Notes under the pieces: model-generated
The model's database searches: none
What the model was told of the DNA's origin: nothing
What the model saw: only the letters and a program-made list of their open reading frames with translations
Source of the DNA: Gracilaria vermiculophylla
Taxonomy: Eukaryota > Rhodophyta > Florideophyceae > Gracilariales > Gracilariaceae
Assembly: GCA_019155205.2 (NCBI GenBank)
Contig: JAHNZQ020000016.1
Span: 1,448,710-1,488,183 of the forward strand
Length of the DNA stretch: 39,474 bases
Direction of reading: 5' to 3'
Made by a program: the position numbers and the translations under genes
Shown: piece by piece, positions 1-39,474 of the stretch
Numbering within the stretch: the first letter of the stretch is position 1
How the letters are laid out: every line of letters starts with the position of its first letter

Positions 1-2
1 GG

Positions 3-812
3 GGACTGTTGGACTTGTTGGACTTCCCGCCTGTGCGCCCTCAACCTCAAGAAGGCCCGTGGCCGAAGGAGGGGGAGGCGCACAAAGTCCGTCGTGATCG
101 TGCCGCGCACTCGCGGACTCGCGCCGTTTCTACGGATAGTGAGGCCGTCCCAAACGTCGCCGCTTCGCGGGAGCGAGTCGGCCTACGTCGCACATCACTG
201 GCTGAGCCGTCCCTTCCGTCGCAGACGTCGACCATTCCGTCGCAAACGTCGGACTGCACTCCGCAAGAGTCGGATCCTCCGTCGCAGGAGTTGGCCCACA
301 CCACGGCAGAGCCGGCAAAGCCCCCAGAAACGGACATCAACGCGCCCGAACGGCGGGAGATACACGTCGGTGAGGGAGAATCAGAGAGGTCCGTTGCGCC
401 CATTTACCCTACCGTGCAGAGCAACCCACCAAGTGGTGCCGTCAGGACACTCGCAGCGTTACGGGAAGACGAGACACCGGCTAAGCCGTTGGACTCCATG
501 CGTCACTCACCGCATACGCCGTCCGGAATGCTGGACGACCCACGCGCAGCCAACCCCGACCGCTGTCGAGACGTCGTCGTTACACGGCATGTCCGGCAGG
601 TTTACCGTCAGGAATACGTGGTCGACCACATTGTGGAGCATTCCTATCACCCTTTGGGGTACATTCAGTACTTGGTCCGTTGGTACGGGTATGGGCCAAA
701 AGCCGATTCGGACGAGCCGATCGAGCATCTGCCCCGCTCCAAGGTGGAGCAATACCACAGGAGAACGCTCACGGCTTTGCTGACAACAATCAGCTGCGCC
801 CAAGTTGGGTAG
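3..812 (+). CDS. Ty3/gypsy pol polyprotein, C-terminal end with chromodomain (5' end outside window)
   Basis: The frame is open from the first bases of the window to a TAG at 810-812, so this is the 3' end of a longer gene. The first two thirds are a Pro/Ser/Arg-rich linker. The last ~60 codons (about 600-790) hold a chromodomain-like module reading YVVDHIVEHS, then a short loop, LVRWYGYGPKADSDEP and IEHLPRSKVEQYH. This is the usual end of integrase in chromodomain-bearing Ty3/gypsy elements, where it is thought to guide integration by binding chromatin. A paralogous module, with YAVDHIV, IDWFGYSSKNDTEEPLEH, ends the pol at 35996-36442 on the other strand. There are no stops or frameshifts here, so the copy may be young. 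The downstream neighbour is a convergent gene on the minus strand. The call rests on the chromodomain and on the paralogue, because the integrase core lies outside the window. Confidence 0.8.
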   Translation, partial: GLLDLLDFPPVRPQPQEGPWPKEGEAHKVRRDRAAHSRTRAVSTDSEAVPNVAASRERVGLRRTSLAEPSLPSQTSTIPSQTSDCTPQESDPPSQELAHTTAEPAKPPETDINAPERREIHVGEGESERSVAPIYPTVQSNPPSGAVRTLAALREDETPAKPLDSMRHSPHTPSGMLDDPRAANPDRCRDVVVTRHVRQVYRQEYVVDHIVEHSYHPLGYIQYLVRWYGYGPKADSDEPIEHLPRSKVEQYHRRTLTALLTTISCAQVG

Positions 813-1083
813 CTGACCCCTCGCAGGGAAGGCTAGATGAACCTTCGCGGAGAAGCCCTGGTGACCCCTGTGAGGGAAGGGTTGCGGAAGAAGTGACCCC
901 TAGTGAGGAGGGTACACAGTAGAACTGGATGATGAAGACCTGGAAAGGGAAGAAGAAGAGAAAGAAGATGGAACGAGATGCATAAGCATACGCAAGAAGC
1001 GGGACCTCCCGGTTTATTGGCACTCGACATTACGCTCGCGCACGCGGAAAGCCGGACCCCCTGCTGGGAAATCCGAAGCCAAC
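813..1083. other. Spacer between convergent pol and antisense gene
   Basis: This short noncoding interval lies between two converging reading frames. Around 815-910 it holds a few near-repeats of the form 'gacccctcgcagggaagg / gacccctgtgagggaagg / gacccctagtgaggaggg', about 3 imperfect units of 30-45 bp. It would contain the 3' ends of both transcripts. No other gene or RNA is seen. Confidence 0.5.
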
Positions 1084-2925
1084 TCACGGGTTGAATGCAC
1101 TGGGCGCGTCGTGGTCATCTCCGGCCTTGCCGTGGACTCCACGGAGGAACTGTGCTACCACCAAGGCTTCGTTTGCCAAAGGCGGTGGAGCTTCGATAAC
1201 TTCCGCTTCGTCCGGCAAGTTCGCGGCAGCCGTATCATGGAACGGCGCTGTCGGAGAACCCGGCACAGCGCCGCCGCTACTCGGTACCGTTGCCGGCCCG
1301 GCCGGACTGTAGCCCGTCCCCAGATTACCCGCTTCGGCGTCATTGGCCCCAATTACATCGTCGTCTTCATAGCCCTCATCGAGGAGGACGTCGTCGTCGT
1401 ACGCCGGGTGGTAGTCGTCGCAATTGACGAATCCACGCGGGTGACCCCGGGGAATAATCCGCTCTGCGGTGCGCAACGCTGCGGCCTCCGCTTCGAAGAT
1501 TTCGCGTCCCTCCCAAGGGTCATAGAAGATGAAATCTCCCGCCAATGGTGTGCGTCGCCCCGGAGACCGGTCATGGCCCCCGCGCTCGTCACCACGGCCA
1601 CTTTGCCGTAACGGAACGGTGCTCCAATCTACACGGTCGACGACATCCAGGAGTTCCTGAGCCTCCTCAGCGTTGTTCACACCCCCAAGAAGGACGCGCA
1701 AGTCGAGCTCTCGAATGCAAGTCCGCAAGCGCGGAGGGAGGTACCACAGTCGATACTGGTCGTAGGTCTCCCAGAGCATAAACGCCACCGTGCGGGCTGC
1801 CCATTCCGTTATTACTACGGACCACAAGCCGGATACCGGATTCTGTAATAGGTATGACCCTTGATAGGTGACCACGGGTGGCAATTTCACATTGTACCCG
1901 CGGCATACCTCTACTGCGGACCACCACCCTGGCAGAGGAACGTACCGGCCAAGCCAATGGAACGGATGGATCCGGTTCACTTCCGTGTTTTGATACGGAA
2001 TTTGGAACCCGAAGCGGGACCTTGACCGACGCTCGTCGCGGATGAAGCCCTGTAAGAACCGGGAGCGACCCTCTCGGTCTAGGTACCGGAATTCGGCCCG
2101 GATAATCGGGCGAACCCAGCAAAGCGCCGCTTGACGCGGAGTTACCTGGCCCCGCCACGCGGTGACATTGAGGTCAGCGAGACGGTCACAATAACCGATC
2201 TCGCCCTCCGTCCGGTACAACCGAAGGTCGAAGCCAAGCTCCTCAGAGAGCGGGAAACGGAATACCGCACGGTTCATACGGGAATATCCGATCCGCGCGA
2301 AGTTGGCGTGCGCCGCTGCGCGCGATGCGCCACTGCGCCGCATAATTGCGTGTTCGGGAACCGCCATTCGGCGTCGCCAATCCCACGAAGTAGTGACGAT
2401 TGCCGGAAGTTCACCCGGAAGCCGGTCGTTTCCGTCGGAGTACGACGCGATGAGCGCCTCGTCGAAGACGGCAGTGGGATGAAACCACGGCGCCCGCCGG
2501 AACAGCATTGCATGACGATGCGGATCCAACCCCACCAAGTCGTTGTACGACGGCCACGCACGCTGCGGCGGCATAATGTGACCCTGTCCGGCACCGCAAC
2601 CGCTGTGGAAGATACCGCCATCGGGTTGCGTGTGACCGCCTACGGCGTGAGGAGCCCCCCGGCGAGGATTCTCCCGTCCCTGCGGACCGGCGTTGTACCC
2701 GCTTTGCGGAAGAGGCACTGACTGGGAGCCACCGAAGAAACCCCCGCTGGCGTAGATGTTGTTGTTCCCGTTCATCGGGCTTGTCGCACGAGAAATCGGA
2801 GGGGAGCTGCTGGAGGCAGGGACGATCGCTGGAGACGAAAGACGGACGATGGAAAGAGAAGACCGCTTGTGCGGGTGTTGCTGTGCACGGCAAAGTTGCG
2901 TAGAAATATCCCGGGTGTTCGGCAT
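1084..2925 (-). CDS. Antisense gene of the gypsy element: intact 613-aa protein of unknown function ('PWFHP' family)
   Basis: This is a complete 613-aa frame on the strand opposite to pol, lying between the pol stop (812) and the polypurine tract and LTR (about 2997 on). I do not recognise a known domain. Residues 1-115 are Ser/Pro/Gly/Asn-rich and probably disordered. Residues ~120-480 are a Trp- and Arg-rich folded-looking core with the landmarks PWFHPTAVF (~146), LPGELPAIV (~165), PGWWSAVEVC (~320), AQELLDVVDRVDW (~420) and DFIFYDPWEGRE (~463). Residues ~500-530 are strongly acidic (YDDDVLLDEGYEDDD). No CCHC knuckle, protease or membrane segment is visible. The same landmarks recur in degenerate copies at 26182-26943 and 33606-35865, so it is a real gene family tied to these elements. 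Plant Ty3/gypsy elements such as Grande and RIRE2 are known to carry antisense genes in this position; homology to those is not claimed. It could be a diverged structural protein or a captured host gene. Confidence 0.75.
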   Translation of the reverse strand: MPNTRDISTQLCRAQQHPHKRSSLSIVRLSSPAIVPASSSSPPISRATSPMNGNNNIYASGGFFGGSQSVPLPQSGYNAGPQGRENPRRGAPHAVGGHTQPDGGIFHSGCGAGQGHIMPPQRAWPSYNDLVGLDPHRHAMLFRRAPWFHPTAVFDEALIASYSDGNDRLPGELPAIVTTSWDWRRRMAVPEHAIMRRSGASRAAAHANFARIGYSRMNRAVFRFPLSEELGFDLRLYRTEGEIGYCDRLADLNVTAWRGQVTPRQAALCWVRPIIRAEFRYLDREGRSRFLQGFIRDERRSRSRFGFQIPYQNTEVNRIHPFHWLGRYVPLPGWWSAVEVCRGYNVKLPPVVTYQGSYLLQNPVSGLWSVVITEWAARTVAFMLWETYDQYRLWYLPPRLRTCIRELDLRVLLGGVNNAEEAQELLDVVDRVDWSTVPLRQSGRGDERGGHDRSPGRRTPLAGDFIFYDPWEGREIFEAEAAALRTAERIIPRGHPRGFVNCDDYHPAYDDDVLLDEGYEDDDVIGANDAEAGNLGTGYSPAGPATVPSSGGAVPGSPTAPFHDTAAANLPDEAEVIEAPPPLANEALVVAQFLRGVHGKAGDDHDAPSAFNP

Positions 2926-2996
2926 GTTGAGAGAGAGCGCTTTAACGCCCGATCTTCGGCGCTCAACTCACTGCTGCGCAGGTGTGCTTCGCTCCT

Positions 2997-3009
2997 AAGG
3001 AGGGGGATA
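2997..3009 (+). other. Polypurine tract (plus-strand primer) of the gypsy element
   Basis: A purine run, AAGGAGGGGGATA, sits directly before the LTR. It is on the same strand as pol, as expected for plus-strand priming. A near-identical tract (TTAGGAGGGGGATA, 26961-26974) precedes a related LTR at 26975. That supports both the motif and the position of the LTR 5' end. Confidence 0.65.
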
Positions 3010-3770
3010 TAAAATGCAACGCCCTTCTGGGGGATTTCTAACGACTTAGTCGGTACTTGCACTCCGAAGAGGTATGGTTATTTTATGATGGTTAGCGCAG
3101 CGGTTGGCCGCTGAGGTGCACGCCGGACTGCCGAGTCACACACGTGGGTACAGTAGGGGTGCATGGCATTGCTGGACATATTAGATATTTTACTCAGATA
3201 ATTTTGGGCGGCGCGCCCCACTGTCAGGGTGGCGCGCCGACTACAGTATATATATCCCGCTACGGCGGCTGCCCAGTAAACCCTATGACGGCCCCAAGAG
3301 GGTTGTGGCTCTGAACTTTCCGCCTCCGGCGTCGCTTACCGCTGCTGCGTGTTGGCACCCGTTTGCACGGCAGTTCATCCTCCCTCGAGACTTAGAGAGT
3401 GTCATCACAACTTGTGTCTAATTCCTTACCGACATTGTCGTGTACTCGCCCCAGCATTGGGTCCTGTTTTTGTTGCTCTTTTCGTCCCGTGCCCACACAC
3501 CGGTGGACACGCTGTCGCTCCGGGTACCTTCCGTACCCTTCACTCTTGCTCGCTCGCGAGACTCCGTACCGATCACTCGTGGTTACTGCCGCTCCATTGG
3601 AGGAATCTCATATTCTACACTCTAGGTAACCGCCTGAAGGGCTGCCCTCGATCTTACAAATCGGCTTCGTCGTGGCACGCCCAGAATGGCTCTGTTTGCT
3701 TTGCTACCCCAGAAGGGGAAGATTCCGAACGTCTTCGTGGTGTTTTCCCGCCTTTGGCGTTGCACTACAC
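3010..3770 (+). repeat. 3' LTR of the gypsy element (3' boundary uncertain)
   Basis: The LTR starts just after the polypurine tract, with TGCAACGCCC at 3014 matching TGCACG-type starts at 26978 and 29378. Its landmarks are GC-rich short hairpins (ggcgcgcc pairs at 3212-3239), a TATATATA at 3246-3253, CAGTAAACC at 3276 and a run of C/T-rich sequence. The same order (A/T-rich stretch, ACAGTA, GC hairpin, CAGTAAA) is seen in the LTRs at 26975, 29373 and 30530. Its 3' end merges into an older integrase relic near 3750-3770, so the target duplication could not be read. Confidence 0.55.
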
Positions 3771-5026
3771 TTCACTTGCCAACCATTGACGCCGACGTCA
3801 AGGCCTTTGTTCAAAGCTGTCTCGTTTGCCTCCTGTCAGCCAGTGGTGACAAGGTGCCACGCCCCCTCAGACACCAGCTTCATGCTTAGCGAGTTGGCGA
3901 ACTCCTTCACTTCGACTACATATACATTGGCGAATCAAGCACACAAGACGAGTACATCCTCATACTTAAGGATGACTTCTCTGGATACGTGTTTCTACGG
4001 ACTTTCAAATCAGCAAATGCCGAGAACACTGCCAATACCTTGCTGGAGTATTTCTCAACATTCACTCCTGTGCTTGATTGGTTCTCGGACCAAGGTCGTC
4101 ACTTCCAGAACAAAGTGTTGGAGATCTTTGCATCAGCTTTCGGATGCAAGCACCGTTTTTCGACCGCCTACGTACCATAGTCGAACGGTACTGTTGAATC
4201 CGTTTGCAAGCAGGTCCTTCGAGTCATGCGCGCTATTAGTGCCGAGCTCCGCATAGCGGAGTCTGCTTGGCCTATTGTTGTGCCATCTATTCAAAGTGTC
4301 ATCAACAACTCGCCGTCTCGCCACTTGGACAACCGCGCACCTATTGAGGTTCATACAGGCATGAAACCTGGAAATCCGCTGTCCATGGCTTTGGCTTGAC
4401 TAAAGACTCGCGAAGTTGACTATGCCGAGCAAGTCGCAATCCTGCGCAAGCTCAAGATCGAGGAGATTCTTCATGCTCTCGACCAGATGCACAAGTCTGT
4501 CAACGAATCTTTATCCGCGTCTCGAACTCAAGCCGTAGATCGCGACAACGCCAAGACACACGTACGTCACTTCAAACCTACTGTGGGAGACTATGTTGTC
4601 GTTGCTCGAGCTCGTGGACCGCGGACTAAGATGTCATGCAACTGGGTCGGACCTCGTCGAATCACCCAGATTCTCTCCGACTTCACCGTCGAAGTCGAGC
4701 ACCTGCTGAACGAAGACAAGGAAATCCTACACGTCTCTCGAGTCAAGCCGTACGCCGACTCATCAGTTGGCACTTCTGTCGAGATGCGCGACATCGCAGA
4801 CTTTGCCGATAGAGTCTGGTGCGCCGTCGACAAGATCAAGGACATCCGCAAGACTCAGGACTCATTCGAAGTCCTTGTCAGTTAGAAAGGTCTGACAACC
4901 GCCAGAGACTCATGGGAGCCTCTTCCGGCAATGTTCGAGGATATTCCTTCCAAGGTTCGCGACTTCTTCAAACGTCGCAGATCTACTGTCGCATTGTGCC
5001 ACGCTAAGCGTTCCATCGGCCTTTGA
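3750..5026 (+). pseudogene. Ty3/gypsy integrase with chromodomain-like tail, decayed
   Basis: One + frame carries, in order, the end of the integrase zinc region (IDADVKAFVQSCLVC, ~3785), the first catalytic Asp (LLHFDYIYIG, ~3915), KDDFSGYVFLRTF, the second Asp (WFSDQGRHFQNK, ~4085) and the catalytic Glu (SNGTVESVCKQVLR, ~4185). After these come the GDYVVVA and NWVGPRRI C-terminal fold and a chromo-like end (KGL...DSWEPLPAMFEDIP). All three DDE residues survive. The frame is broken by a TAG at 3887-3889, a TAG at 4178-4180 (where a conserved Trp is expected), a TGA at 4397-4399 and a TAG at 4883-4885 (again at an expected Trp). RT and RNase H are missing; the 5' part seems cut off by the LTR at 3010. 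The style matches gypsy elements of oomycetes and algae, and this is a different lineage from the pol at 1-812. Confidence 0.8.
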
Positions 5027-5042: not shown

Positions 5043-5212
5043 TGTGGTGCTACCCTGCAGCTTGGATGCCGCCATAAGGCGCGGCATCCAATTACCGGCC
5101 GTTATTCAAGGCCACTGAATTGTTTTGAGGACGTGTAATTCCAGCCCTCCTTCGCTCCTCTGTTTACGGCACCGCCGGTCGGTACAGGGGCCTTAGCGAG
5201 TGGTAGCACACA
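5043..5212 (+). repeat. Short LTR (170 bp) belonging to the decayed gypsy element upstream
   Basis: It begins 16 bp after the pol pseudogene stop, behind the purine-rich cgtgagggac. The ends are inverted repeats, TGTGGTGCTACC (5043-5054) and GGTAGCACACA (5202-5212), giving the TG...CA ends of an LTR. Inside is a perfect 11-bp stem (5062-5072 with 5081-5091, loop of 8). No partner LTR is seen, so this is the 3' LTR of a truncated element. The target duplication cannot be tested. Confidence 0.6.
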
Positions 5213-5309
5213 TCCACCTGGGGCGAAGAGATGAAGGGAGGAAAAGTTCGCGACCAGGACGCCGACCCCCCTCGCGCCGGTAAAAGCGGGAGATCTCCTT
5301 CTGCACTCT

Positions 5310-5740
5310 CATTGCGGGAAGTCAGCTGCCCGTAAAAAGACACAAGCGCCGTCGTCTAGCTTCCGCACCACGCTCAGCCTCCATCTCTCGTTGAGCCAGC
5401 CACGTGGATTGACACGCAACAGTTGGCGTGGTCCCCGTCGGATCATCAAAGCGTTTATCGACTTCGAGTGCCAAGTCGAAGACTTGCGCACGGACCATTT
5501 GGACGAAATACACGCGACGCCGCTTACATTCCACCCCTACAACGCGGTAGATGAACGTATGATCATGGATCACGTGTTGCAATCAGAACTAGGCATGCCC
5601 GTTGCCCGCCTTATGCATCCCTAAGATAGCTCTGGGGGACTCCAAGTCATTATTCGATGAAAGCGCCTTTGTAAGGCTGGGGGTACCGTCCAATCTCTCC
5701 TGAATGTCTTTGAAGACGTCCATTCCATGGTAAAGAGCTT
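5310..5740 (+). pseudogene. Gypsy integrase C-terminus/chromodomain fragment
   Basis: The + frame from ~5385 reads RNSWRGPRRIIKAF, then CQVEDLRTDHLDEIHATPLTFHPY, then ELGMPVARLMHP. After stops at 5622-5624 and 5658-5660 it continues LLNVFEDVHSMVKSLL. This is the GPF/Y-like and chromo-like tail of a gypsy integrase of the same general type as the copy at 3750-5026, but from a different element. The TGA at 5658 falls where the chromodomain Trp is expected (IIR-W-KRL). Both ends are degraded and no LTR was identified. Confidence 0.65.
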
Positions 5741-8829: not shown

Positions 8830-9275
8830 GGGGAGCAGAGCGCGCACGAATGCACCCTGCGCCGCATGCGCGCAAGAGGCGCGCTCCACGCGTCGCGCGC
8901 GGCGCACGCGCTGCGCCGCTGCTCTCGCGCGGCACGCGCACATGCGCAATGCCATCGCCACGGCGCGCGCGCGCGCGTCATTGGCCGCGCGCGTGCGTCG
9001 CTTGGCCACCGCCGTCCCCGCTGCGGCTTCCGCCGCCGCCGCTCTCTGCGCCGCGCCGCGCCGCACCGCGCAGCGCGCCTGCGCACCGCCAGCGTGGCGC
9101 AGCCGCGCCTGTGCTCACTTCTGCCACTGCCGCTGCCAGTACAACCCCCCCCCCCTGCCGCGCCTGGCCGCCCTGGCCCCCCGCGCGTACCCGCCCCGCT
9201 GCCGCCGCTGCCGCCGCTGCCGCCGCTACCGCCGCTGCCGCCGCTGCCGCCGCTGCCGCCCCCGCCCCCGCCGCC
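8830..9275 (+). promoter_or_regulatory. CpG-dense 5' region of the bZIP gene
   Basis: This is an extremely CpG-rich stretch with an alternating CG run (about 8963-8977), an inverted CCAAT box (ATTGG, 8979-8983) and a CCGCTG/CCGCCG run directly before the start codon (9190-9270). The frame of the gene stays open through it, but the encoded sequence is an Arg/Ala smear typical of noncoding GC-rich DNA. I take it as promoter plus 5' UTR. Confidence 0.4.
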
Positions 9276-11171
9276 ATGTTTCCGCATGCCTTTCCGTGCG
9301 CACTGCCGCAAGCGCCCGTCGAGCAGCCCGTGATGCCCATGTTGCCCGACCAGTTTTGCGTCGCGCCCGACCTGGCGCATCCGCCTCCCGCCCTCGCCAT
9401 GCCGCCCGCCTGCGCCGCGCTCGCCGCGGCCCCCGGCGGCCCCTCTCCCGAACCCGCGCTCTCCTTCGACGTCGAGCATATGACCACGGCCGATTTGCTC
9501 AACAACATCCACCCCTTCCCTTTGGACCACATCAAGGACACCACCCCGCACCTTTTTTCCGGCCTTGTCGCTCAGGAGTCCACCAATATTGCCTCCAACA
9601 CCGAAGCGCCCGCCCCGACATTCCACACCATCCACTCAACCATGCCCGTTCCCTCTCCGCCGCCTATCGTTCACTACTCATCGACGCCCTCCCCACCTAA
9701 CACCCATTCCCTCCCGCTACCCATGCCCGCTCACAGTGCCGCGCCCGTTCCAGCCGTGCCTGTCACACCGCTGCTAACAAATCCCAATCACCCCGCCACC
9801 ATGCCGCTCCTCAACCCCAACTTCCGCCTGCAACCTGTCGCCCCGCCCGTGGGCCCCGCCATCCCTCCGCACCTCACAAACCCACCCTTCGCCACCCCGC
9901 CCGTGGCCCCCGCCATCCCTCCGCACCTCACAAACCCACCCTTCGCCGCCCCGCCCGTGGCCCCCGCCATCCCTGCACACCTCACAAACCCACCCTTCGC
10001 CGCCCCGCCCGTGGCCCCCGCCATCCCTGCACACCTCACAAACCCAGCCCTCCCCGCCCACAACCCCGCCCTCATGGCCGTCCTGCGCCAAGCCCAAGCC
10101 ATGGCCTCCGTCCCCCACTTCCCGCCCGCGCCGACGCCGGCGCCCGCGCCGCACCCCACCTTTGTGCCCGTTGCGCCCGCCTTCCCCACCCCGCCGCCGT
10201 GCGCGGCCAGCGCCGCCGGCGCCGGCTTCCGGCACGCGCCGTCGCCGCCTCCGCCTCCGCCGCGAAGCTTCGCGGCGCACCCGCCGCCGGCTGCGCCCGC
10301 GCTCCCCGCGCCCGCGCGCGCGGCGGCGAGGCCGGCGCAGCCGTCGCCGGGAGCGCTCGCGCTCGCCGCTGCGCCCGCGCCGCAGGGGGGGCCGGCGCAG
10401 CCGCCGCCGGAGGCGCTCGCGCTCGCAGCGGCGCCCGCGCGGCGGCAGCCGCCGCCGCCGGCGCCGCCGCCAGCGCCGCCGCGCCGCAAGCGGCCCATCG
10501 CTGCGCTCAAGCGCCGCGCGGCGGCCGCGCCCGCGGCCGCGCCCGGCTGCGCGCCGCGCGAGCGGCCGCCCTCCGTGTACTCGCCGGCGCCGGATGGTCG
10601 CGCCGCGCTGCGCCCCGCGGGCGGCGCGCTTGCCGCCGCGTGCGGCGCGGGTGGCGGCCGGCCGGGCTCGGCTGGTCCCGGCGGCGCGACCGCTTTGGCG
10701 CCGCGCAGCCGGGAGGCGGGGGGGACGGCGGCTCAGTCAGCGGCGGTGTCAGACCAGCCGGCTGACCCCGAAGCGGAAGTGCACATCGTGGTGAAGAAGG
10801 CCATGCGTGCCGAGCGCAACCGGCAGAGTGCTGCGGCAAGCCGGGAGCGCAAAAAGCATTATATAAAGGAGCTGGAACGCAAAGTGAGCGTGCTCTCGCA
10901 GGAAAATGCGAAGATGAAGAAAATGCAGTTCCGCTTGGCGCTGGAGAAGCGTGAGCACGAGTCGAAGGTCGTCGACGAGATGAAATGCCTTCGAAGGCAG
11001 ATCGTGGACCGTGATCTGGACGTCCATAAACTTTCACAACTGTTGCAAAATGCTAAGTTGAGGGGTGGAGGAAGCGACGAAGAGGATGACGAGTTAGACC
11101 TGCCGCGACCCAAGACCTGGGATGCAGCAGAGTGGCGGAAGAAGATGAGAGGGTACAGACGAAGAGCTTAG
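9276..11171 (+). CDS. bZIP transcription factor with long Pro/Ala-rich N-terminal region
   Basis: This is a 631-aa protein if translation starts at ATG 9276, chosen because its context (CCGCCATGT) is strong and because sequence upstream is low-complexity; the frame is open back to 8850. The C-terminal domain is a classical bZIP. The basic region has RAERNRQSAAASRERKK (N-x7-R invariant pair) near residues 508-525. It is followed by heptad hydrophobics (YIKELERKVSVLSQENAKMKKM and onward to ~580), then an acidic patch (SDEEDDELDL) and a basic tail (WRKKMRGYRRRA). The N-terminal ~480 residues are Pro/Ala-rich with few charges, typical of an activation or repression region, with one ordered-looking stretch (TTADLLNNIHPFPLDHI, ~70). 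Expected role: a nuclear, dimeric, DNA-binding regulator; target unknown. No introns are evident. Confidence 0.85.
   Translation: MFPHAFPCALPQAPVEQPVMPMLPDQFCVAPDLAHPPPALAMPPACAALAAAPGGPSPEPALSFDVEHMTTADLLNNIHPFPLDHIKDTTPHLFSGLVAQESTNIASNTEAPAPTFHTIHSTMPVPSPPPIVHYSSTPSPPNTHSLPLPMPAHSAAPVPAVPVTPLLTNPNHPATMPLLNPNFRLQPVAPPVGPAIPPHLTNPPFATPPVAPAIPPHLTNPPFAAPPVAPAIPAHLTNPPFAAPPVAPAIPAHLTNPALPAHNPALMAVLRQAQAMASVPHFPPAPTPAPAPHPTFVPVAPAFPTPPPCAASAAGAGFRHAPSPPPPPPRSFAAHPPPAAPALPAPARAAARPAQPSPGALALAAAPAPQGGPAQPPPEALALAAAPARRQPPPPAPPPAPPRRKRPIAALKRRAAAAPAAAPGCAPRERPPSVYSPAPDGRAALRPAGGALAAACGAGGGRPGSAGPGGATALAPRSREAGGTAAQSAAVSDQPADPEAEVHIVVKKAMRAERNRQSAAASRERKKHYIKELERKVSVLSQENAKMKKMQFRLALEKREHESKVVDEMKCLRRQIVDRDLDVHKLSQLLQNAKLRGGGSDEEDDELDLPRPKTWDAAEWRKKMRGYRRRA
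9843..10058 (+). repeat. Four 54-bp tandem repeats inside the bZIP gene
   Basis: Four in-frame 18-residue units of the form PPVAPAIPxHLTNPPFAx start at 9843, 9897, 9951 and 10005. Units 2-4 are nearly identical at nucleotide level, so the array probably expanded recently and may vary in copy number between strains. Confidence 0.9.
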
Positions 11172-26181: not shown

Positions 26182-26943
26182 TTAGAGTCTTATTGTAGTG
26201 TACTTCCCCGAAGAGAAATGTACCACGAGGGATGTTCGGAAACATTCTCTCGTGAGGTGCCTCAGAGACAGAGCTTTCCTCAGACGAGGCACATGAGCCG
26301 GGCGTAACTGCGAGGCTACGCGGTCGCAACGGGGGCAGAAGGAAACATAAATAGAGGAACTGCGGATTTGGCGAGTCCGCTGAATGAGGCAGTTTCCGTG
26401 GGTTCGGTGAGATGTCCTTGTAGGATTTCGGGCTATCTCGGCGCGGCCATCCCCCGGAAGTACGTCGGTCCCGTCAACATAATGGTGAACGAGTTCACCG
26501 TTCCGCACTGAGGCGGGGTGAAACCACGGTACAAACACGAGACGTACCGCCGCTTGTCGGGTTCGCGGGCTGAGTCCCGCCAGGGAATCGTACGACAGCC
26601 ACCGTAGGCCGATGGAGTCCTCAAAGACTGACTGACCTGCCCTTCGAGTAACATGGGAAGAAGCCGGTGGAGCCAGCATCGAGCGAATCCCAGTGGACAG
26701 GTTGTTGTTGGAGTCCAAGACTTCATTTAGCAACGAAGTTGGAGGATTCGGAGTCGGCTCGCCGATGGGGAGGTAGAGAATCTGCGTTACTGGTAAAACC
26801 GTCGCAGACGGAAACGTTTGCCATGATGGGGAGGATTGTTCAACACTTGTCGCGTGCACTGCCGGCACACTTCCGTGACCTCCCGGCGAGCCAAAGATGA
26901 GCGCTAAATCATATGTCTTACCCGCATGCCGGATGCCCACCAC
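26182..26943 (-). pseudogene. Antisense 'PWFHP' family gene, copy 2 (partial)
   Basis: 253 codons on the minus strand. WLSYDSLAGLSP, VPWFHPASVRNGELVHHYVDG and VLPGDGRAEIA align with the core of the intact 613-aa protein (RAWPSYNDLVGLDP, PWFHPTAVFDEALIASYSDG, LPGELPAIV). The similarity fades after an apparent frameshift near 26400. It is followed, in the same geometry as the intact copy, by a polypurine tract (26961-26974) and an LTR (26975). Pol is missing upstream, where mariner debris is found. Confidence 0.7.
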
Positions 26944-26974
26944 GGGTTGGGGCCCTTGGCTTAGGAGGGGGATA

Positions 26975-27745
26975 TGAAGTGCACGACCGTTTTTCGGGGT
27001 ATTTCCGTTTACGGATTTCTACTAAGAAACTCGCGTTAGAAGGCTGATAATGTTGAGTCCCGCGCGAGCGGCCGCCGGCGCAAGCTCTACAAATGTGGTA
27101 CTGGAAACCCTCGGGAGGGTCGGTGCCTGGAACAGTGCACTGGTGGTGGCTCAAGTGGCCGTGTATTAATTTATTTTGAATTTCTCCATTTATTTAATTA
27201 GCAATTCAATACTCAAGGCGCCAGCGTCACCGCTGCGGTGCTCAGTAAAAAGTAACCAAGGAGTTACGGCTCTAAGCCTTTCGTCTGCGTCGTTATTTGC
27301 CTCTCACGAGGGAAATCCCGTAGTGTACGGTTGCTCATCCACCTTATTCGCTGAGAGTGCCCATACTTGAGGTATCCCCAAATTCACTATGATTGCTTCT
27401 TGTTTAGGGAACGGAACTTGACGGCTCGCCTTTGTTTGGCTTACGGGTACCCCACGTACTCCCAAGTTGGATGAATATCTTCCACCTTGTGGATCTCGGG
27501 ACCCACGTTCCCACTCCATTTCCCATCTCTTTCTCTCCCGTAGGCTTCCCACACTCAAACATCCACCTAATGGGGATCTTTCTTTTACCTCTCCGGCCAT
27601 GTGCTGCCGAAACAACCTCATTCATACACCTCAAATTGTCTTGTTGTTTTCCCGAGAGGGGTCTACCGCCAAACTAGCACTGCAGAGCCAGATTCGGACG
27701 TTCTCGTGTGCTTTTCCCGCTTGCGGGATGCTGCAATTCAGAAAG
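26975..27745 (+). repeat. LTR copy 2 of the ambisense gypsy family
   Basis: It starts with TGAAGTGCACG directly after the polypurine tract. It aligns with the LTR at 29373-30007 from start through the A/T-rich stretch, the GC hairpin and CAGTAAA motif (~27243), the GCCTCTCACGAGGG hairpin (27298-27311) and the CACCTTGTGGAT stretch (~27482). The 3' end is placed where similarity changes to an antisense-gene fragment; it is uncertain. Confidence 0.6.
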
Positions 27746-31199: not shown

Positions 31200-31376
31200 A
31201 GATCACTAGTTTCTCCACTCGTGGTTCTAATGCACCCGATGCGATGGCTTAGCTCCAGAGTTACGCCCGGCTCGAGTGCCTCGCCAGAGGAATGCTCTGC
31301 TTCTAAACTACCTCGCGAGAGGGAGGTCCGAACATCATTCGTGGTAATTTCCCCTTTGAGTTATTGCACTACAGCA
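31200..31376 (+). pseudogene. Antisense 'PWFHP' family gene, fragment copy 4
   Basis: The reverse complement matches 26212-26350 and 27746-27880 (shared CCACGA, ATGTTCGG, AGCAGAGC, GAGCCGGGCGTAAC). It is on the opposite strand to copies 2 and 3. It is short, with no intact reading frame claimed. Confidence 0.45.
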
Positions 31377-32232: not shown

Positions 32233-32717
32233 TTGGCAGTTCTCCTTTTGAGGTAGTAGAGCACAACGTCTGTTAGAAGATTTTGTTGACTCCAAAGGCG
32301 CGAGTTCCACAAGGTGGTATCCGGTATTCGCTATCGCGAGCCGGGGGATTTCTTAAATGGGATCCGCAAACACCAAGCGGTGGGGGAGGTTCACTGGGCG
32401 GACAATGCTTCTACAGGCGCTGCTATGATGCGACTTGGGGATCGGCGGCTTAAAAACCTGAGGATGATCGATGAGAGTCTTCAATCGGAAAAGCAGCTGA
32501 GGACTCAAGGGTGCTTGGTGTTATTCCCCAGAGGTTGAGCTCGACCGGAAGACTGCGTATCATGCCCGGAGCCCGCCTCGACAGGTCTCACTGCTGAAGT
32601 AATTACCAGCACAAATTAACTAAAATAAATATAAATTCTACCGTCTCTTAAAGATACTGAAGCGCACGCGGGCCGAATTATGCACCACGTGGCTCAGTTA
32701 ATAAAATACGAGCCCTC

Positions 32718-33026
32718 TGTTGGAAAACAGATGAGCTATATGCGCTATACTCTCTTGTGACACAGGGCGCACAGTTCACCATTTGAACTATCAACACGCC
32801 CCCTCGCCCTGTACTTTATTACAGAACGAGACCTCGAGCTTACAGTAGCCAATCTTCACTACTGCTGTACACCTGTACAATTTCTCAGGCTCAGGTCACT
32901 TCTGGGAGTCGAACCCAGGGTCCTAGCGATTAGCTGGGCCCATAACCTGTTGGAAAACAGATGAGCTATATGCGCTATACTCTCTTGTGACACAGGGCGC
33001 ACAGTTCACCATTTGAACTATCAACA
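32718..33026 (-). mobile_element. Complete TRIM (miniature LTR retrotransposon, 309 bp)
   Basis: There are two identical 79-bp LTRs (32718-32796 and 32948-33026) with TGTTG...CAACA ends. In the minus orientation the 5' LTR (33026-32948) is followed directly by GGTTATGGGCCCAG (32947-32934). This is complementary to the anticodon arm of initiator Met-tRNA, the half-tRNA primer used by Drosophila copia-type elements. A G-rich purine tract (gggcgaggggg, about 32798-32808 on the minus strand) precedes the 3' LTR. The target duplication CCCTC is present on both sides (32713-32717, 33027-33031). The ~150-bp interior has no gene. It includes a tRNA-like T-arm (32902-32918, minus) and an AATAAA. It is non-autonomous, so copia-type proteins must be supplied in trans. 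Identical LTRs imply a recent insertion. Confidence 0.92.
32902..32918 (-). other. tRNA T-arm-like segment inside the TRIM
   Basis: On the minus strand CTGGG-TTCGACT-CCCAG forms a perfect T-stem and loop that includes a pol III B-box core (GGTTCGACTCC). The following AGAAGTGACC could be an acceptor 3' strand. No matching 5' acceptor or D-arm is present, so this is not a complete tRNA gene. Confidence 0.6.
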
Positions 33027-33087
33027 CCCTCCTTAGAAATATCATACCATAAAGCCACACCACCATATTTCCTTAGGAGCCACTATA

Positions 33088-33605
33088 CATAATACCCCCT
33101 TTCCTTAATTGCACCACTTTTTTGAGGTGCATCATCCAATATTTAGTTCCCTGGGTGGCTCCAATCAGTGTTGATGCCAGCGCGGCATTCGGCGAAGTGA
33201 CATATTCTCTCTTTCAGGCGTTCCATCATACCTCTATACTCTTGCGCGGCCTACCACTGCAGGATCGTGTTTTTTCTCTTGCGGTGTTTGCGGGCCCTAG
33301 CCCTCCTTGACCCAGCCCCGTCTCTTCCTTCGTTGCGTAACACGTCGGTGCTACCACGTCAGTCGGGTGCGTGAGCTTCCACGCACTCGAGCGTCTCGAG
33401 CGCAGCACAGGCATTTGACCTCCGCGGCGAGGGCAGGGGTCCGTCCGGATTGTACGCTGATTCCCTCAACGCACCCGAAGCTCCGATTCCTTCGAGGTTC
33501 CCCTTTTGGGGAACACCCGTTTCATCGCGTCCACTCGTTCAGTCTCTGTTAAGGTGCATCATCTCATATTCTTCTCGTCTATGCCCCCGTCCGCCTTCAC
33601 TAGAT
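33088..33605 (-). repeat. Probable 3' LTR region of the right-hand gypsy element
   Basis: Between repeat C and the antisense gene. It holds a perfect hairpin GTTCCCC-TTTT-GGGGAAC (33497-33514), comparable to hairpins near the starts of the other LTRs, and AGGTGCATCATC twice (about 33125 and 33551). Read on the minus strand, a purine-rich stretch lies near 33560-33575. Exact LTR ends were not found, so the call is positional. Confidence 0.35.
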
Positions 33606-35865
33606 ATGAACATGGTACTCCATACCCCGCCTGCCTTCGGTCGTCCGTCCTCTCCGCGAATCCCACGATGGCGCCTCGACGTGGCTCTCTCCCCGCTCGG
33701 GCGTATAACCGTGGGCCTCTCCCCAAGTGGCGTCAGATCACTCTCCTCAGGTGCTACGACAGGTGCGGTCGCCATCCTTCCAGCAACCCACATTTTTGGC
33801 ATGTCTTCTCCAACTCCCACGCTTACGTCTCCATCCAATCCTGAGGTGTATCACACCTCGACCTCTGCACTATTCCGCCCTGGGGAACAATTCGACCAAC
33901 ATACCACGTGGGTCTTCGTGCCATTTCACGACAGGCGCGTCGTTCTCCCCAGCCTCGTGGAGGACTACATCCACCACTTCGGATCGTACCTCCAGGCGAT
34001 GCGATTCCGTGCCGTACCGGAGGTTGCTTGGAACGACCAGAAGCGGAGCCGGGTGGACGCCTATCGCGCTCACTGGCTCCACCTTTCGGCGCACGGGAAC
34101 AACGCTCCATCCACGGTGGGTCACTGCGACACTCTCTATCTCAGGTGCGCCGAGGAACGGGAGGTCCAAGCGCGACTCCAAGTACTACTTCACAAGGAGA
34201 GATTGCGATAAAGAGTGGGGCGGCCCGGAAGCATTGCCGGTGGACGCTCCGCCCTCGCGGTGTTTCCCTTCGATCCCCCATACGATCGCCTCTACTGTCC
34301 CAACCAAAATCGTCGGGGGACGCATCTTGCGGATGAGACCCGAGAATGTACCGCCTTTGGGTACTTCTATGGTTGACATAACACGGAATTTCACGAAATG
34401 CCTTCCGGGCAACGTCCGAAGTACTCCCTCAAGGCGCATGACTCTTGGAGGTACCACGGGGTATCTCCGCACCTCTACGTGGCGACATTCGTTACCTTTG
34501 CGCACCACATCTCGAAGATTCTAGATCCTCATGACGTCCTAGGGCGTTTCGTCATATTGATCGCCTCAACGTAGTTCGCGGTCGGCACCTTGATGGCGTA
34601 TCTCTAAGCAGCGGACGAGGGCGTTACTTCCTAAACTCGGTGCCGCGACGGTCGCCTCTAATGGAATTCTTCGTATCAGCCGACCGCTTGACGTTTGCTC
34701 CCCTTGTCGGCGTCAATTATCCGGGTGCTGCCCTCCTTAGGCAATCAGAACCTGATCAAGGGCACCGCGTGGGGCAAATCCGGGGCGGAGACGCTGCTGG
34801 ATTACAACCTAGAGGTAGCGTAGAACGATACGCCGGGCTTTCTTTGGTACGACTACAGCGAAGATAAGTTCCACCCCATCTTGAGGAGTACCAAAGGAGA
34901 CGATAACGGGCGAGCCTACCTGGTCTTTTCTCGTCTGATGCCTTCTCGTGTTCCTCAGATGCCACAGCTCCGCGTACCCGACTATGACCTCGAGATGGAA
35001 AGCCTGGCGCATCATACGCCCCGTCGGGTAGAGGCTCCGTCCAAGGGTATGGGTGCGCCCCCTGAGGTGATAACGCCGTGGCCCGCTGCAATGCCGGATG
35101 CTCCCGCAGTGGTAGCCGCCGTGTCTGCTATGAAGGAGAACGACATTGCTCCGGTCCCGATACCTTCGGGCCCGGTGGTGCAACCCCGACTGCGGAACGT
35201 CCCTGCACCGCTTCTTCAGCCTCGCCTGTGGAGCGTTCCAATTTCCGCACAGCCGTCACCTCCGGTGTCGCCGACTCCATCCTTGGCTCTGCCGATCTCC
35301 ACGGGGGTGCCTGTGGAGTCCCTTCAGGGAGCCCCTGCCACTCCTGGTCCGCCGTCCACGGCTTTTTCCGTGGCGGTTGTTGCTCCGTCAACGTTGGTGG
35401 CCGATTCGGGTGCACCATCAGGCGGGTTATCTTCTAGGGCTCAGGGTGCTGCCTTCCGAGAGTTGGTGCAAGCATTCCTGGTGACGGACCGTCCATCGCC
35501 GGCTTCTTCTATTGAGTCTCTGTGCGAGGCGCGTGCCTGGGTCTTAGAACTCCACAAGGCCCGGGTGGACCGAGCCTCGATGGCCGCCATCAAGGAAAGC
35601 TGGCGGAGTTCTTCGAGAGCCAAGCGCTCACGGCAAAAGCTCGCCTTTAAGTAGAGTATACGACGAGAATCGATGACACATTGGTGAAAGATCCCCGGGC
35701 GATGGGAGTTAGTGCCAGATAGCGGCGTAATAAAAGATCCTTCAATTGGAGCAGAAGCTCCGTGAACGGTAGTTGCAATACGAACGGGCCGCGCTGGTGC
35801 ACTCAGCGACACAAGTGGCCGCCACGGAAGCGTGCGAAAAGCGAGCAACGGCGTCTTGGAGGTGA
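33606..35865 (+). pseudogene. Antisense 'PWFHP' family gene, copy 5 (long form, decayed)
   Basis: On + and tail-to-tail with the pol on -. The frame from MNMVLHTPPAFG (33606) runs to 34211 and includes TWVFVPFHDRRVVLPSLVEDY, matching the PWFHP region of the 613-aa protein. In later, frame-shifted pieces, FVTFAHHISKILDPHDVLGRF matches its VVTYQGSYLLQNPVSGLWS. AETLLDYNLEVA-stop-NDTPGFLWYDYSEDK matches AQELLDVVDRVDW...DFIFYDPWEGR; the TAG at 34821-34823 falls on that Trp. The open frame 34881-35654 is a Pro/Val-rich region ending AAFRELVQAFLVTDRPSPA and a basic helix. A coiled-coil-like remnant (ILQLEQKLRER, LQYERAALV) reaches 35865. So this version is longer than the 613-aa one. Several stops and frameshifts are present. 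Confidence 0.7.
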
Positions 35866-35995
35866 AAAAGAGAACTTCAGGTGGGGGGTAGACAGGGGAG
35901 ACGAAAAACAACTCCGGTTGGGAGCCGCCTCCCCCTTTCCTAAACGGAATCGCCTATAAGGAGAGGCGTTTCCGCAACAAATTGGCGTTGTATGT

Positions 35996-37349
35996 TCAAA
36001 AGAAGTTCTCCTGGATGTGTTCCAGAGGTTCTTCCGTGTCATTTTTTGAGGAGTATCCAAACCAGTCGATGCGGCACAGTATTCCTGCAGGGATTTGTCG
36101 ATGGAGGACGATATGGTCCACCGCGTAAAGGATAACACCTTCAGGGGTCAAGATGGCATGTGGAGCCTCCAGCAATGGTTTACCGAGGGGGGTGGTGCAC
36201 TTTCCAGCATTCACGGTATCCTGACTCCTGAGGTGGTCGGATGAGGAAGTTCCGCGCGTGGTCCCTGAGGTGGGGTGGTGGGTATTCCTGAAGGAGTAGC
36301 CCATCCGCTGGGTGCGCTGTGGCACGTGCCGCGATGACGGCACTTGGCGGGATGCGCGAGAGCACCAGATTGAAAGCAGCGGTCCCCGTAGAGCGGTGCA
36401 CCTGCAGGTAGCATGCATACGTGATGGGGCCCACATATGCATCCCGATCCTTCTGGTGATCCGCGACGTAGGGCTTCTGCCTCAGAGCGATGGTCTTGTT
36501 GAATCTCTTCGCATGTCTGTTGGTCTCGTGGTGATAGGCAGTTGTAAACAACTGTTTCATCCCCAGCATTCCAGTGATGGCACTGCAGAGCTTCGCCGCA
36601 AAATGGGGGCCATTGTCCGTAAGGAGGTACAACCGTATTCCAAATGGGTGAACCTAGTGATCCAAAACGGCGGCGGCAATTACTGCTGCAGTGGTGCTCC
36701 GGAGGGGAATTGCGCGCGTGGTCATTGAGAAACGATCGGTGATCAAGAGGATAAATCGGTACCCTCGCTCCGTCTAAAGGAGAGGGCCTAAAAAGTCCAT
36801 GGCCACGAACTTCAAAGGTTCTGTAAGCTAAAACAGAGTGAGTGGCGTCCGCTAATTCCGTATATTTCCCCTAGTGGCGGCGCAGGAATAGCAATCGGCC
36901 ACCGTTTGGAAGGCGTCATAAGTCATGTGCGGCCATTAGAACTCCCTTCTCATGGTGAAATACTTACGCGATCCACCGGGGTGCCTGGCAAGGCAAGGAT
37001 AGTGCGAGAGAAACAACACCCTCGCCCATACTTTCGTCGGGACTACCTTTTGGAGAGCTACATCCAGGAGAGTGCGGTGTACAATTACGCCGTCCCGGTT
37101 GATATCAAATAACGATGTTAGACTCCCCACAGTCGCGAGGCACTCCTTGCAGTACGCCTTCGTACTCTGCTCCCTCAGGAACTCCACTATGGTGATGGGG
37201 GGAACTTCTTTCTCCTCCTCAACAAGGGCCATCATCTCAGATATCCCACTGTAGTTTCCTTCAGGTTCAAAGCATTGCAAGCATTCTCCATCGGATCCTT
37301 CTTTCCAGTCGTCTTCCTTTATAACAAGACACTGGATGGTGTCCTTCAA
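35996..37349 (-). pseudogene. Ty3/gypsy pol, integrase and chromodomain part, decayed
   Basis: In minus-strand order: a linker frame 37349-36936 ends in the integrase zinc region (HYPCLARHPGGSRKYFTMRREF, a stop, WPHM, then DCYSCAAT, giving an HHCC pattern). Next are the first catalytic Asp (FVAMDFLGPL, ~36800) and the second (LLTDNGPHFAAK, ~36620). HHETNRHAKRFNKT (~36510) follows, where the catalytic Glu of the usual QVERFN is Lys. LVLSR and the chromodomain (YAVDHIV, IDWFGYSSKNDTEEPLEH, ~36130-36010) end it. Frameshifts separate these parts. The chromodomain is paralogous to the one ending at 812. The element cannot integrate by itself. Confidence 0.85.
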
Positions 37350-39474
37350 GGTGCTTTTTCTTTGCCCTCGGTGGAGATTCGCGAGAACGCGTCCGCTGCC
37401 TCGTTTTTAACACCAGGAAGTTGGACAATATCAAACTCGAACTCCAGGAGGCGTAGTCTTCACCTTTCCAGGCGACGGGAAGCCTCCATCAAAGACAGTA
37501 TCCACCTCAGTGGTGCGTGGTCTGTCCTCAAGGTGAAACGCGCGCCTCCTAGGTACGGGCGTAAAAGCAAAACCGCCCACACGATGGCGAGACACTCGCC
37601 CTCCGAAGTGGAATAATTCCGTTCCGTAGGGGTGAGGCTGCGACTTCAATACCCGATGGGTTGAAGTCCACCTTCAGGTTGTTCCTGTAGGAGGGCACAT
37701 CCAACCTGATACTTACAGGCGTCAGTGTCCAGCACCATTCGGCCGGGTCGTTTCGGCAATACCAAGATTGGTGGTTCTATTAGTCTCCTCTTCAGGGTGT
37801 CGAAGGCTTCAAACTCTTCGTCCGTCAAGAGAGCCAATTGCGTCGGCTTGTCCTTCTCCAGGAGGCGATTTAACGGCGCTGCTATACGGGAGAAATTAGG
37901 GACAAACCGCCGGAAGACGTTACAAAACCCAAGGAAGGAGCGGAGCTCCGTCTGGTTTATGGGAGGGCGAGCTTCCTTAATGGCGTCCTGAGTTTTCCTA
38001 GAAACCTGTAGGCGGCCCGGAAGCACAACGTGCCCCAGGTAGTCCACCGACGACTTGAAAAAGAAACATTTCTCCAGCTTCAAGGTGAGGCCAGCATCCT
38101 TTAGGAGTTGGAGCACGTGCTTCACATGAATGAAGTGCCCCCCCACGCTGCGGGAGTATATGATGACATCATCGATATACACCAAGGCGTCCTGCCATTT
38201 TACCTTTGACAGGATAATGTCAACTGCTCGTTGGAACGTAGCGGGTGCATTCTTCAACCCGAATGGCATCCTTAGGAATCTGAAGATCCCACATTGCGAG
38301 ATGAACGTTGTCTTATCCTTATCGGAGTCGTCCATCTCAATCTGCCAGTAGCCGCTATTGGCATCCAGCGTGGAGAAAACGGACGCATCGCCTAAGGAGT
38401 CGATACATTCATCCATCCGGAGTATCGGGTACGAATCGCGTACCGTCACCTCGTTAAGGCGCCTGTAGTCAATAAAGAACCTTAGGGATCTATCTTTCTT
38501 TTTGACAAACACCACCGGGGAGGCCCATTCGGAATTGAAAGGCTCTATAACGCCCATCTCCAGCATCCGGTGAACCTCATCGCGTTCAAAGTCGCGCGCG
38601 TGGGGTCCGGCTCTCCTCATGAGTTGATGTACCGGCTTAGTATCCGGTGTGAGCTGGATCTTGTGCTTGGCCAGGCTGACCTGATCCAGGCGACCAGACA
38701 ACATGTCCTCGAAGGCGGATAGCATCTCCACTATCTTGTGGCGATACCCTTAGAAATCATCACCAATTTGGAGCTTCTCCTGCCAGGTGGCAGGATTCTC
38801 TTCCTCTGGAGGCGTTGATGTCGCTTTCGTCTCCACGGAGGCGATAGCATCGCGGTCCGCAAGGTCTTCCGCTCGTGGAAGGTGAGCCAGTCCTGCAGGG
38901 GCGGGTAGTGCGAGCCCGACGACACTTCCTTTCTGGAGCCGTAACGGTGACTCCTTCAGGTTAGCGAGCACCACCCTAAAGGGGACGTTCGGTATTACTT
39001 CCATAACACCGTTCGCCATCATGGAGTGCTGCTTTGTCGTCAGGTCGGGACTCCCCTGTAGGAATGAAAGGCCAGATGCAGAGGTCTGCACCCAGACTTC
39101 GGCCTGACTCCTCGCGGGTATTTCAATGCTCTTCACCACGCGGAGCTTATTCGACTGCGTCTCCTTCGGAAGGGTACCCACTTGATGCGCGTTCGCGTCC
39201 GGTCCAGGAGATGCGGACACAATACCTACAGGCGCAGCGTCATGAAACGTCACCTTCCGCAGGCATGGGTAGATTGCACGTACATATCGATCCACAAAGG
39301 AAGTGCCCAATATGCATTGTGCGCCCAAGTTGGTCGCCACAAGGAACCACACTTTCACCTGTAAGGAGCCCAACCGGAGGTACAAGGTGATTGCACCAAG
39401 GATGGTCAATGCTCGTCGCGACGCATCGCGTACCGTCGGGAGCTTTCCAGTCCTCACGGAGCCGAGAGCAGCAA
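37346..39474 (-). pseudogene. Ty3/gypsy pol, protease-reverse transcriptase-RNase H part (5' end outside window)
   Basis: A single minus-strand frame from the window edge to 37346, broken only by a TAA (38750-38752) and TGAs (37646-37648, 37460-37462). The first part is the C-terminal half of a retropepsin (CILGTSFVDRYVRAIYP, ~39290); its DTG site lies outside the window. RT follows with all key blocks: KKKDRSLRFFIDYRRLNEVT, FSTLDANSGYWQIEM (first Asp), FLRMPFGLKNAPATFQR, and YIDDVIIYS (catalytic YxDD, ~38180), LGFCNVFRRFVPNF. RNase H begins LDTDACKYQVGCALLQ and continues past the stops with SEGECLAIVWA, RTDHAPLRWIL and GVKNEAADAFSRI. Both TGAs stand at conserved Trp codons. RT itself is uninterrupted, so decay is recent. 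Confidence 0.92.

Follow-up and report, generated by a model that had tools for sequence, protein, structure and literature searches.

A stretch of 39,474 nucleotides from contig JAHNZQ020000016.1 of the red alga Gracilaria vermiculophylla (hereafter the window) opens with the end of a retrotransposon pol gene on the plus strand, which is met tail to tail by an uninterrupted open reading frame (ORF) of 613 codons on the minus strand. This arrangement raises the question of whether the backward ORF belongs to the retroelement as a working gene and, if so, what its product might do. The ORF, whose relatives are here termed family A, is almost certainly a genuine protein-coding gene, an accessory gene that is carried by the element and maintained by selection in a lineage of chromodomain Ty3/gypsy-type long terminal repeat (LTR) retrotransposons.

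The window element is bounded on both sides. The C-terminal part of pol occupies positions 1–812 of the plus strand (reading frame 3–812, stop codon at 810–812), and a Pfam search places a chromodomain in it (PF00385, E = 1.9e-7, residues 205–254). A spacer of 271 bp (813–1083) separates the stop codon of pol from that of the antisense gene, which is intact from its ATG and lies at 1084–2925 of the minus strand. A leader (2926–2996) lies between the ATG and the LTR side and is followed on the plus strand by the polypurine tract (PPT; 2997–3009) and the 760-bp 3′ LTR (3010–3769); a purine-rich tract is present at the PPT site in all 10 aligned copies, with one pyrimidine in copy L012. The partner of the LTR was located in the 10 kb preceding the window, L031, at L031:3733–4492. 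The two LTRs are 98.3% identical over 761 aligned bases, the 5′ copy starting with TG and the 3′ copy with TA, and a target-site duplication, CTTCA, was read by eye at 3770–3774 of the plus strand and at L031:3728–3732. Because CTTCA flanks the LTR pair, the PPT and LTR are part of the same element as the antisense gene, and this element measures ~10.0 kb from its coordinates, with the antisense gene inside it. An initial annotation, made from the letters of the window, had described an intact 613-codon minus-strand gene between the pol and 3′ LTR of a gypsy element, with the PPT and LTR as its own, and both points are borne out. Its further statement that the gene fills the whole interval between pol and the PPT is nearly accurate, 271 bp (813–1083) and 84 bp (2926–3009, PPT included) lying outside the gene.

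The remaining parts of the element are in keeping with this assignment. The sister copy most similar to the window pol (L032:7110–8894) contains both rve and Chromo domains, and so shows, together with the PF00385 match in the window, the integrase followed by a C-terminal chromodomain that defines Ty3/gypsy chromodomain elements. ORFs in the gag position are found at L031 4663–6363; they matched no gag model in Pfam, and the term gag refers to their position. The antisense gene, which runs opposite to gag-pol between the pol stop codon and the PPT and 3′ LTR, thus occupies the position termed aORF-3R for antisense ORFs (aORFs). The window element is itself an insertion into the pol of a different gypsy-type element, with reverse transcriptase (RT) and ribonuclease H (RNase H) upstream, parts of which are seen at L031:436–3676 and from window position 3775 onward. 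L031:1–232 and window 5193–5424 are 95% alike and are perhaps repeats of this outer element.

The same arrangement recurs across the genome, for which the assembly of the alga itself was searched (44.8 Mb, 27 contigs). Relatives of family A gave 73 matches, which merged into 70 places; the pol tail and the integrase, searched separately, gave 148 and 132 listed matches. A pol tail was found within 3 kb of 38 of the 70 places, on the opposite strand and on the 3′ side in all 38, compared with 0.36 places on average and a maximum of 2 in 200 runs of random placement. At 3.5 kb, one additional place was reached, where the tail lies 5′ of the gene and on the same strand. RT matches within 7 kb were found at five family A places, three of them in the antisense position. 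With integrase and RT matches added, pol lies tail to tail on the opposite strand at 43 of the 70 places, and the proximity to pol anticipated in the initial annotation is thereby upheld. Among 28 loci (L001–L030 minus two redundant ones), a pol tail was present in the 1.5-kb flank of 26 and was antisense to the gene in 26 of 26. An LTR adjoins the 5′ end of the antisense gene in the window copy and in 10 of 11 additional copies that were looked at, L018 showing none, and a purine-rich tract and LTR stand beside the gene in all 10 aligned rows, which comprise the window copy and nine others from two subfamilies. Distances between copies of the gene are correlated with those between the respective pol tails (r = 0.876 over 320 pairs), a value reached in 0 of 2000 permutations. 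The antisense gene is an old and fixed part of the element.

The pattern of substitution indicates what has been conserved. Ratios of nonsynonymous to synonymous substitution rates (dN/dS) were obtained for 18 pairs of family A genes, and the four more distant pairs gave 0.13, 0.25, 0.35, and 0.36. When all six frames were compared in five pairs, the antisense frame had the lowest dN/dS of the six (0.13, 0.27, 0.37, 0.57, and 0.54, the first three from older pairs) and contained 1–4 codon pairs with a stop, versus 10–27 in the other five frames of the three older pairs. A homologue in a second florideophyte red alga, Gracilariopsis chorda (P0002, a hypothetical protein of 617 residues), aligns with 96% of the query at 44% identity. 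Because the antisense frame has the lowest dN/dS and few stops, and because this 44% homologue exists, selection appears, most simply, to act on the protein. Protein-level conservation is thus seen both in the co-divergence with pol and in the frame-specific dN/dS, and these comparisons show that the antisense gene has long been passed on together with pol and that purifying selection on its product has maintained it.

The family A protein has a Ser/Pro-rich N terminus (by eye), a basic Trp/Arg-rich core at approximately residues 136–470 (isoelectric point (pI) 9.75, 13 Trp), and an acidic tail at 471–613 (pI 4.1). The core is conserved, and a C-terminal segment common to several relatives is partly missing from the window copy. 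No membrane-like stretch was found, the best 19-residue hydropathy mean being 1.18. By its look, the product would be a soluble, nucleic acid-associated protein. Single-sequence and alignment searches, each of which scored the 7992 candidate proteins sharing the most words with family A, agree on four outside homologues, two of them the hypothetical proteins BWQ96_03215 and BWQ96_10156 of G. chorda. No Pfam domain was found in the window protein, nor in eight family A members at E ≤ 1; PHROGs gave no match for four family A proteins, NCBIfam none for five proteins including one of family B, and a profile search of PDB sequences with family A none. Collections of viral contigs and genome contigs yielded no confirmed relative of family A. 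The suggestion in the initial annotation of a possible new class therefore stands for the protein family, for which the libraries searched gave no match, and not for the architecture, which is described in passages of PMC7264820 and PMC11963269.

A second antisense family is present in the window. The initial annotation had noted a repeat of the tail-to-tail pol pairing at 33606–39474, and the layout is indeed there: the pol of a second element lies on the minus strand at 35975–39472 (RT/RNase H 37646–38731, integrase 36237–36842, chromodomain 35975–36127), and its integrase and chromodomain (36842–35975) face a plus-strand gene at 33450–35654, broken into frames 33450–34211 and 34881–35654. 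This gene belongs to a very diverged family, B, rather than to family A, and was not found in a family A profile search of the window. Searching with its first piece gave at least 150 matches in the genome (621 candidates), and pol is in the tail-to-tail position at 57 of the 150 matches listed; an RT match was present within 7 kb at 39 B places and took the antisense position at 35. Upstream of the B gene, nine of nine aligned copies keep a PPT-like purine tract. Among the matches listed, the 70 integrases with 45% or more identity to the A lineage have an A gene in 26 cases, a B gene in 1, and neither in 43, and the 62 with 40–45% identity to it have an A gene in none, a B gene in 23, and neither in 39. 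Family B thus holds the same antisense position in a sister pol lineage. Its dN/dS is 0.24–0.38 in four of five pairs and 0.57 in the fifth, and it is likewise under purifying selection. No outside protein homologue of family B was found among 7990 candidates scored. A profile–profile comparison of A with B, for which stop-free pieces were used, aligned 80 columns with a score of 35.3 (P = 0.0012), compared with a maximum of 23.5 in 40 shuffled controls and 18.9 in a reversed control. Families A and B are likely, though not proven, to be homologous, and because of this probable homology the ambisense layout would be ancestral to both. We consider it reasonably probable that the layout predates at least two long-separated red-algal chromodomain gypsy-type lineages and that both families go back to a single antisense gene of otherwise unknown fold, which stayed opposite pol as the proteins diverged beyond ordinary sequence detection.

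Several observations weigh against this account. Pol was found only in another arrangement at 2 of the 70 family A places and was absent from the matches listed at 25; for family B, 88 of the 150 matches listed had no pol listed nearby and 5 had only another arrangement. A missing pol near an A or B gene is weak evidence, the match lists being incomplete and the copies degraded. Seen from pol, of the 43 A-lineage integrases (of 70) with neither gene among the matches listed, six were inspected; remnants of the antisense gene (E about 2e-9) are present in L047 and L048, and none was found in L046 and L049. At L050 (C3:1258900–1263000), an A-lineage pol tail and a 93% LTR are retained and the antisense gene is almost wholly deleted; such a copy fits a product that acts in trans, and a dead deletion derivative would look alike. 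Fourteen close pairs of the 18 approach neutrality (dN/dS 0.47–1.05); the values include 0.47–0.69 for the three comparisons of the open copies L008, L010, and L012 with one another. Weak constraint of this kind would follow from the decay of copies once they have inserted, and the constraint between copies on which the initial annotation had staked its reading is thus found in the four older pairs (0.13–0.36) and is weak in the 14 recent ones. On the opposite strand, the frame whose third positions coincide with those of the gene also has a lowered dN/dS (0.30–0.69), yet it contains 15–23 stops. The homology of A and B rests on one 80-column match with an hhalign probability of 19%, and two AlphaFold models built from a five-sequence input were unusable (mean predicted local distance difference test (pLDDT) scores of 30.0 and 38.8), so that a core fold was not obtained.

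The position of the gene is shared with several known systems. Antisense accessory genes of LTR elements are recorded in flowering plants, one fungus group, and retroviruses in the relevant passages of PMC7264820 and PMC11963269. As the initial annotation noted, the maize Grande gene23 and rice RIRE2 genes have the identical position and strand, and gene23 is reported to be driven by a separate promoter upstream of it and to encode a nuclear protein (PMC7264820, in part). These elements differ in having plant hosts, and their proteins are simply absent from the family A protein matches, which is not a direct comparison. Retand elements of flowering plants, whose antisense ORFs encode TRP28 (PF04195), are likewise Ty3/gypsy elements and have LTRs of 315–1,194 bp, compared with 760 bp here; in the sections of PMC11963269 that treat them they are non-chromoviruses, whereas a chromodomain is present on pol here. 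In addition, PF04195 was absent from eight family A members at E ≤ 1. Membership in Retand was rejected on these two grounds, the lack of TRP28 and the presence of a chromodomain. Boty of Botrytis cinerea provides a non-plant LTR element with an antisense ORF between pol and the 3′ LTR (PMC7264820, in part). It differs in being fungal and is likened by layout, the proteins not having been compared directly. HBZ of human T-cell leukemia virus type 1 (HTLV-1) is a retroviral basic leucine zipper (bZIP) protein, whereas no domain was found in the family A protein with Pfam. Similar to family A, HBZ is encoded on the minus strand, at the 3′ end of an element with LTRs, and is a nuclear product (PMC11963269); HTLV has an antisense promoter in its 3′ LTR (PMC7264820), as described in parts of these sources.

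By analogy with Grande gene23, the Retand TRP28 proteins, and HBZ, the family A protein may be a trans-acting nuclear regulator, a role that we assign only tentatively. Transcription of the gene would start at an antisense promoter within or next to the 3′ LTR and proceed toward pol, the leader at 2926–2996 together with the LTR being the likely promoter site. On its minus strand, the LTR has a TATA-like stretch (window ~3074–3090), which was seen by eye in 8 of 10 aligned LTRs from two subfamilies and is only suggestive as a candidate antisense promoter element. The soluble product, with its basic core and acidic tail, would then have a trans effect, most likely exerted inside the nucleus, on the transcription, the RNA, or the integration complex of the element itself. 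Taken as a whole, a selected antisense accessory gene with a nuclear regulatory role is the explanation that we favor, with some confidence.

Other functions for the protein were weighed; the roles put forward in the initial annotation, a structural protein, a regulator of the sense transcript, or a silencing suppressor, are still guesses. A structural or particle-associated protein, such as an extra capsid, envelope-like, or movement protein, would suit the large size and conserved core, and extra genes 3′ of pol are envelope-like in some elements (passages of PMC7264820); it is nonetheless unlikely, given the lack of a membrane-like stretch and the existing ORFs in the gag position, to which the antisense gene has no profile similarity beyond shuffled controls (eight shuffles each). 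The same profile comparison led to the rejection of gag as the source of the gene, and an envelope-like 3′ gene was ruled out by the antisense orientation and the hydropathy value given above. Somewhat less likely again is that the protein suppresses silencing by acting against small RNAs, for instance small RNAs derived from sense and antisense transcripts that converge; two genes facing each other across 271 bp could give rise to double-stranded RNA, but no Pfam family, and hence no suppressor family held in Pfam, was matched.

Two further readings are much less probable than the nuclear regulator favored here. That the antisense RNA matters rather than the protein, through regulation in cis by antisense transcription, has precedent in the antisense non-coding transcripts reported for other retroelements in passages of PMC7264820, but frame-specific purifying selection in both A and B and a full-length protein of 44% identity in another alga make it very improbable. 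Slightly more improbable still is that the gene was captured from the host, or that it belongs to an unrelated element that happened to insert between pol and LTR: nesting does occur at this locus, where the window element sits inside another gypsy-type pol, but the place and orientation of the gene are fixed (26 of 26), it has diverged together with pol, and the purine tract and LTR directly adjoin it.

Further traces of these elements are scattered through the window. A recurrence of the antisense gene with PPT and LTR had been proposed at 26182–27745; a family A gene fragment is found there at 26185–27018 of the minus strand (profile E = 1.7e-13, best part 26449–26601), and the PPT and LTR were not verified, none of three A-type LTR queries having matched in that interval. 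The end of an old LTR, 76% identical to A-type LTRs, lies at 31261–31373. Positions 32717–32802 and 32947–33032 form a 98% direct repeat with starts 230 bp apart, between the copies of which a tRNA-like T-arm can be made out by eye on the minus strand; ARAGORN finds no tRNA. A long ORF at 8850–11171 contains 54-bp periodic repeats at 9785–10108, and its end is bZIP-like by eye.

The aORF-3R architecture is known; these elements differ from the known cases in the group of hosts, in the presence of a chromodomain on pol, and in the protein family. No red-algal antisense retroelement gene is named in the titles or abstract openings of the open literature searched. The protein family is also named here, and its two named members are currently annotated as hypothetical proteins. 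If the account is true, an antisense accessory gene would have arisen once more in the red-algal elements, probably independently, and have persisted there for long, in addition to the cases of Retand and Grande in flowering plants, fungal Boty, and HTLV-type retroviruses. A selected, copy-rich case with two families would point to a backward gene beside the 3′ LTR as a recurrent and durable strategy, and the red-algal families may serve as a comparative system for the function of antisense accessory proteins.

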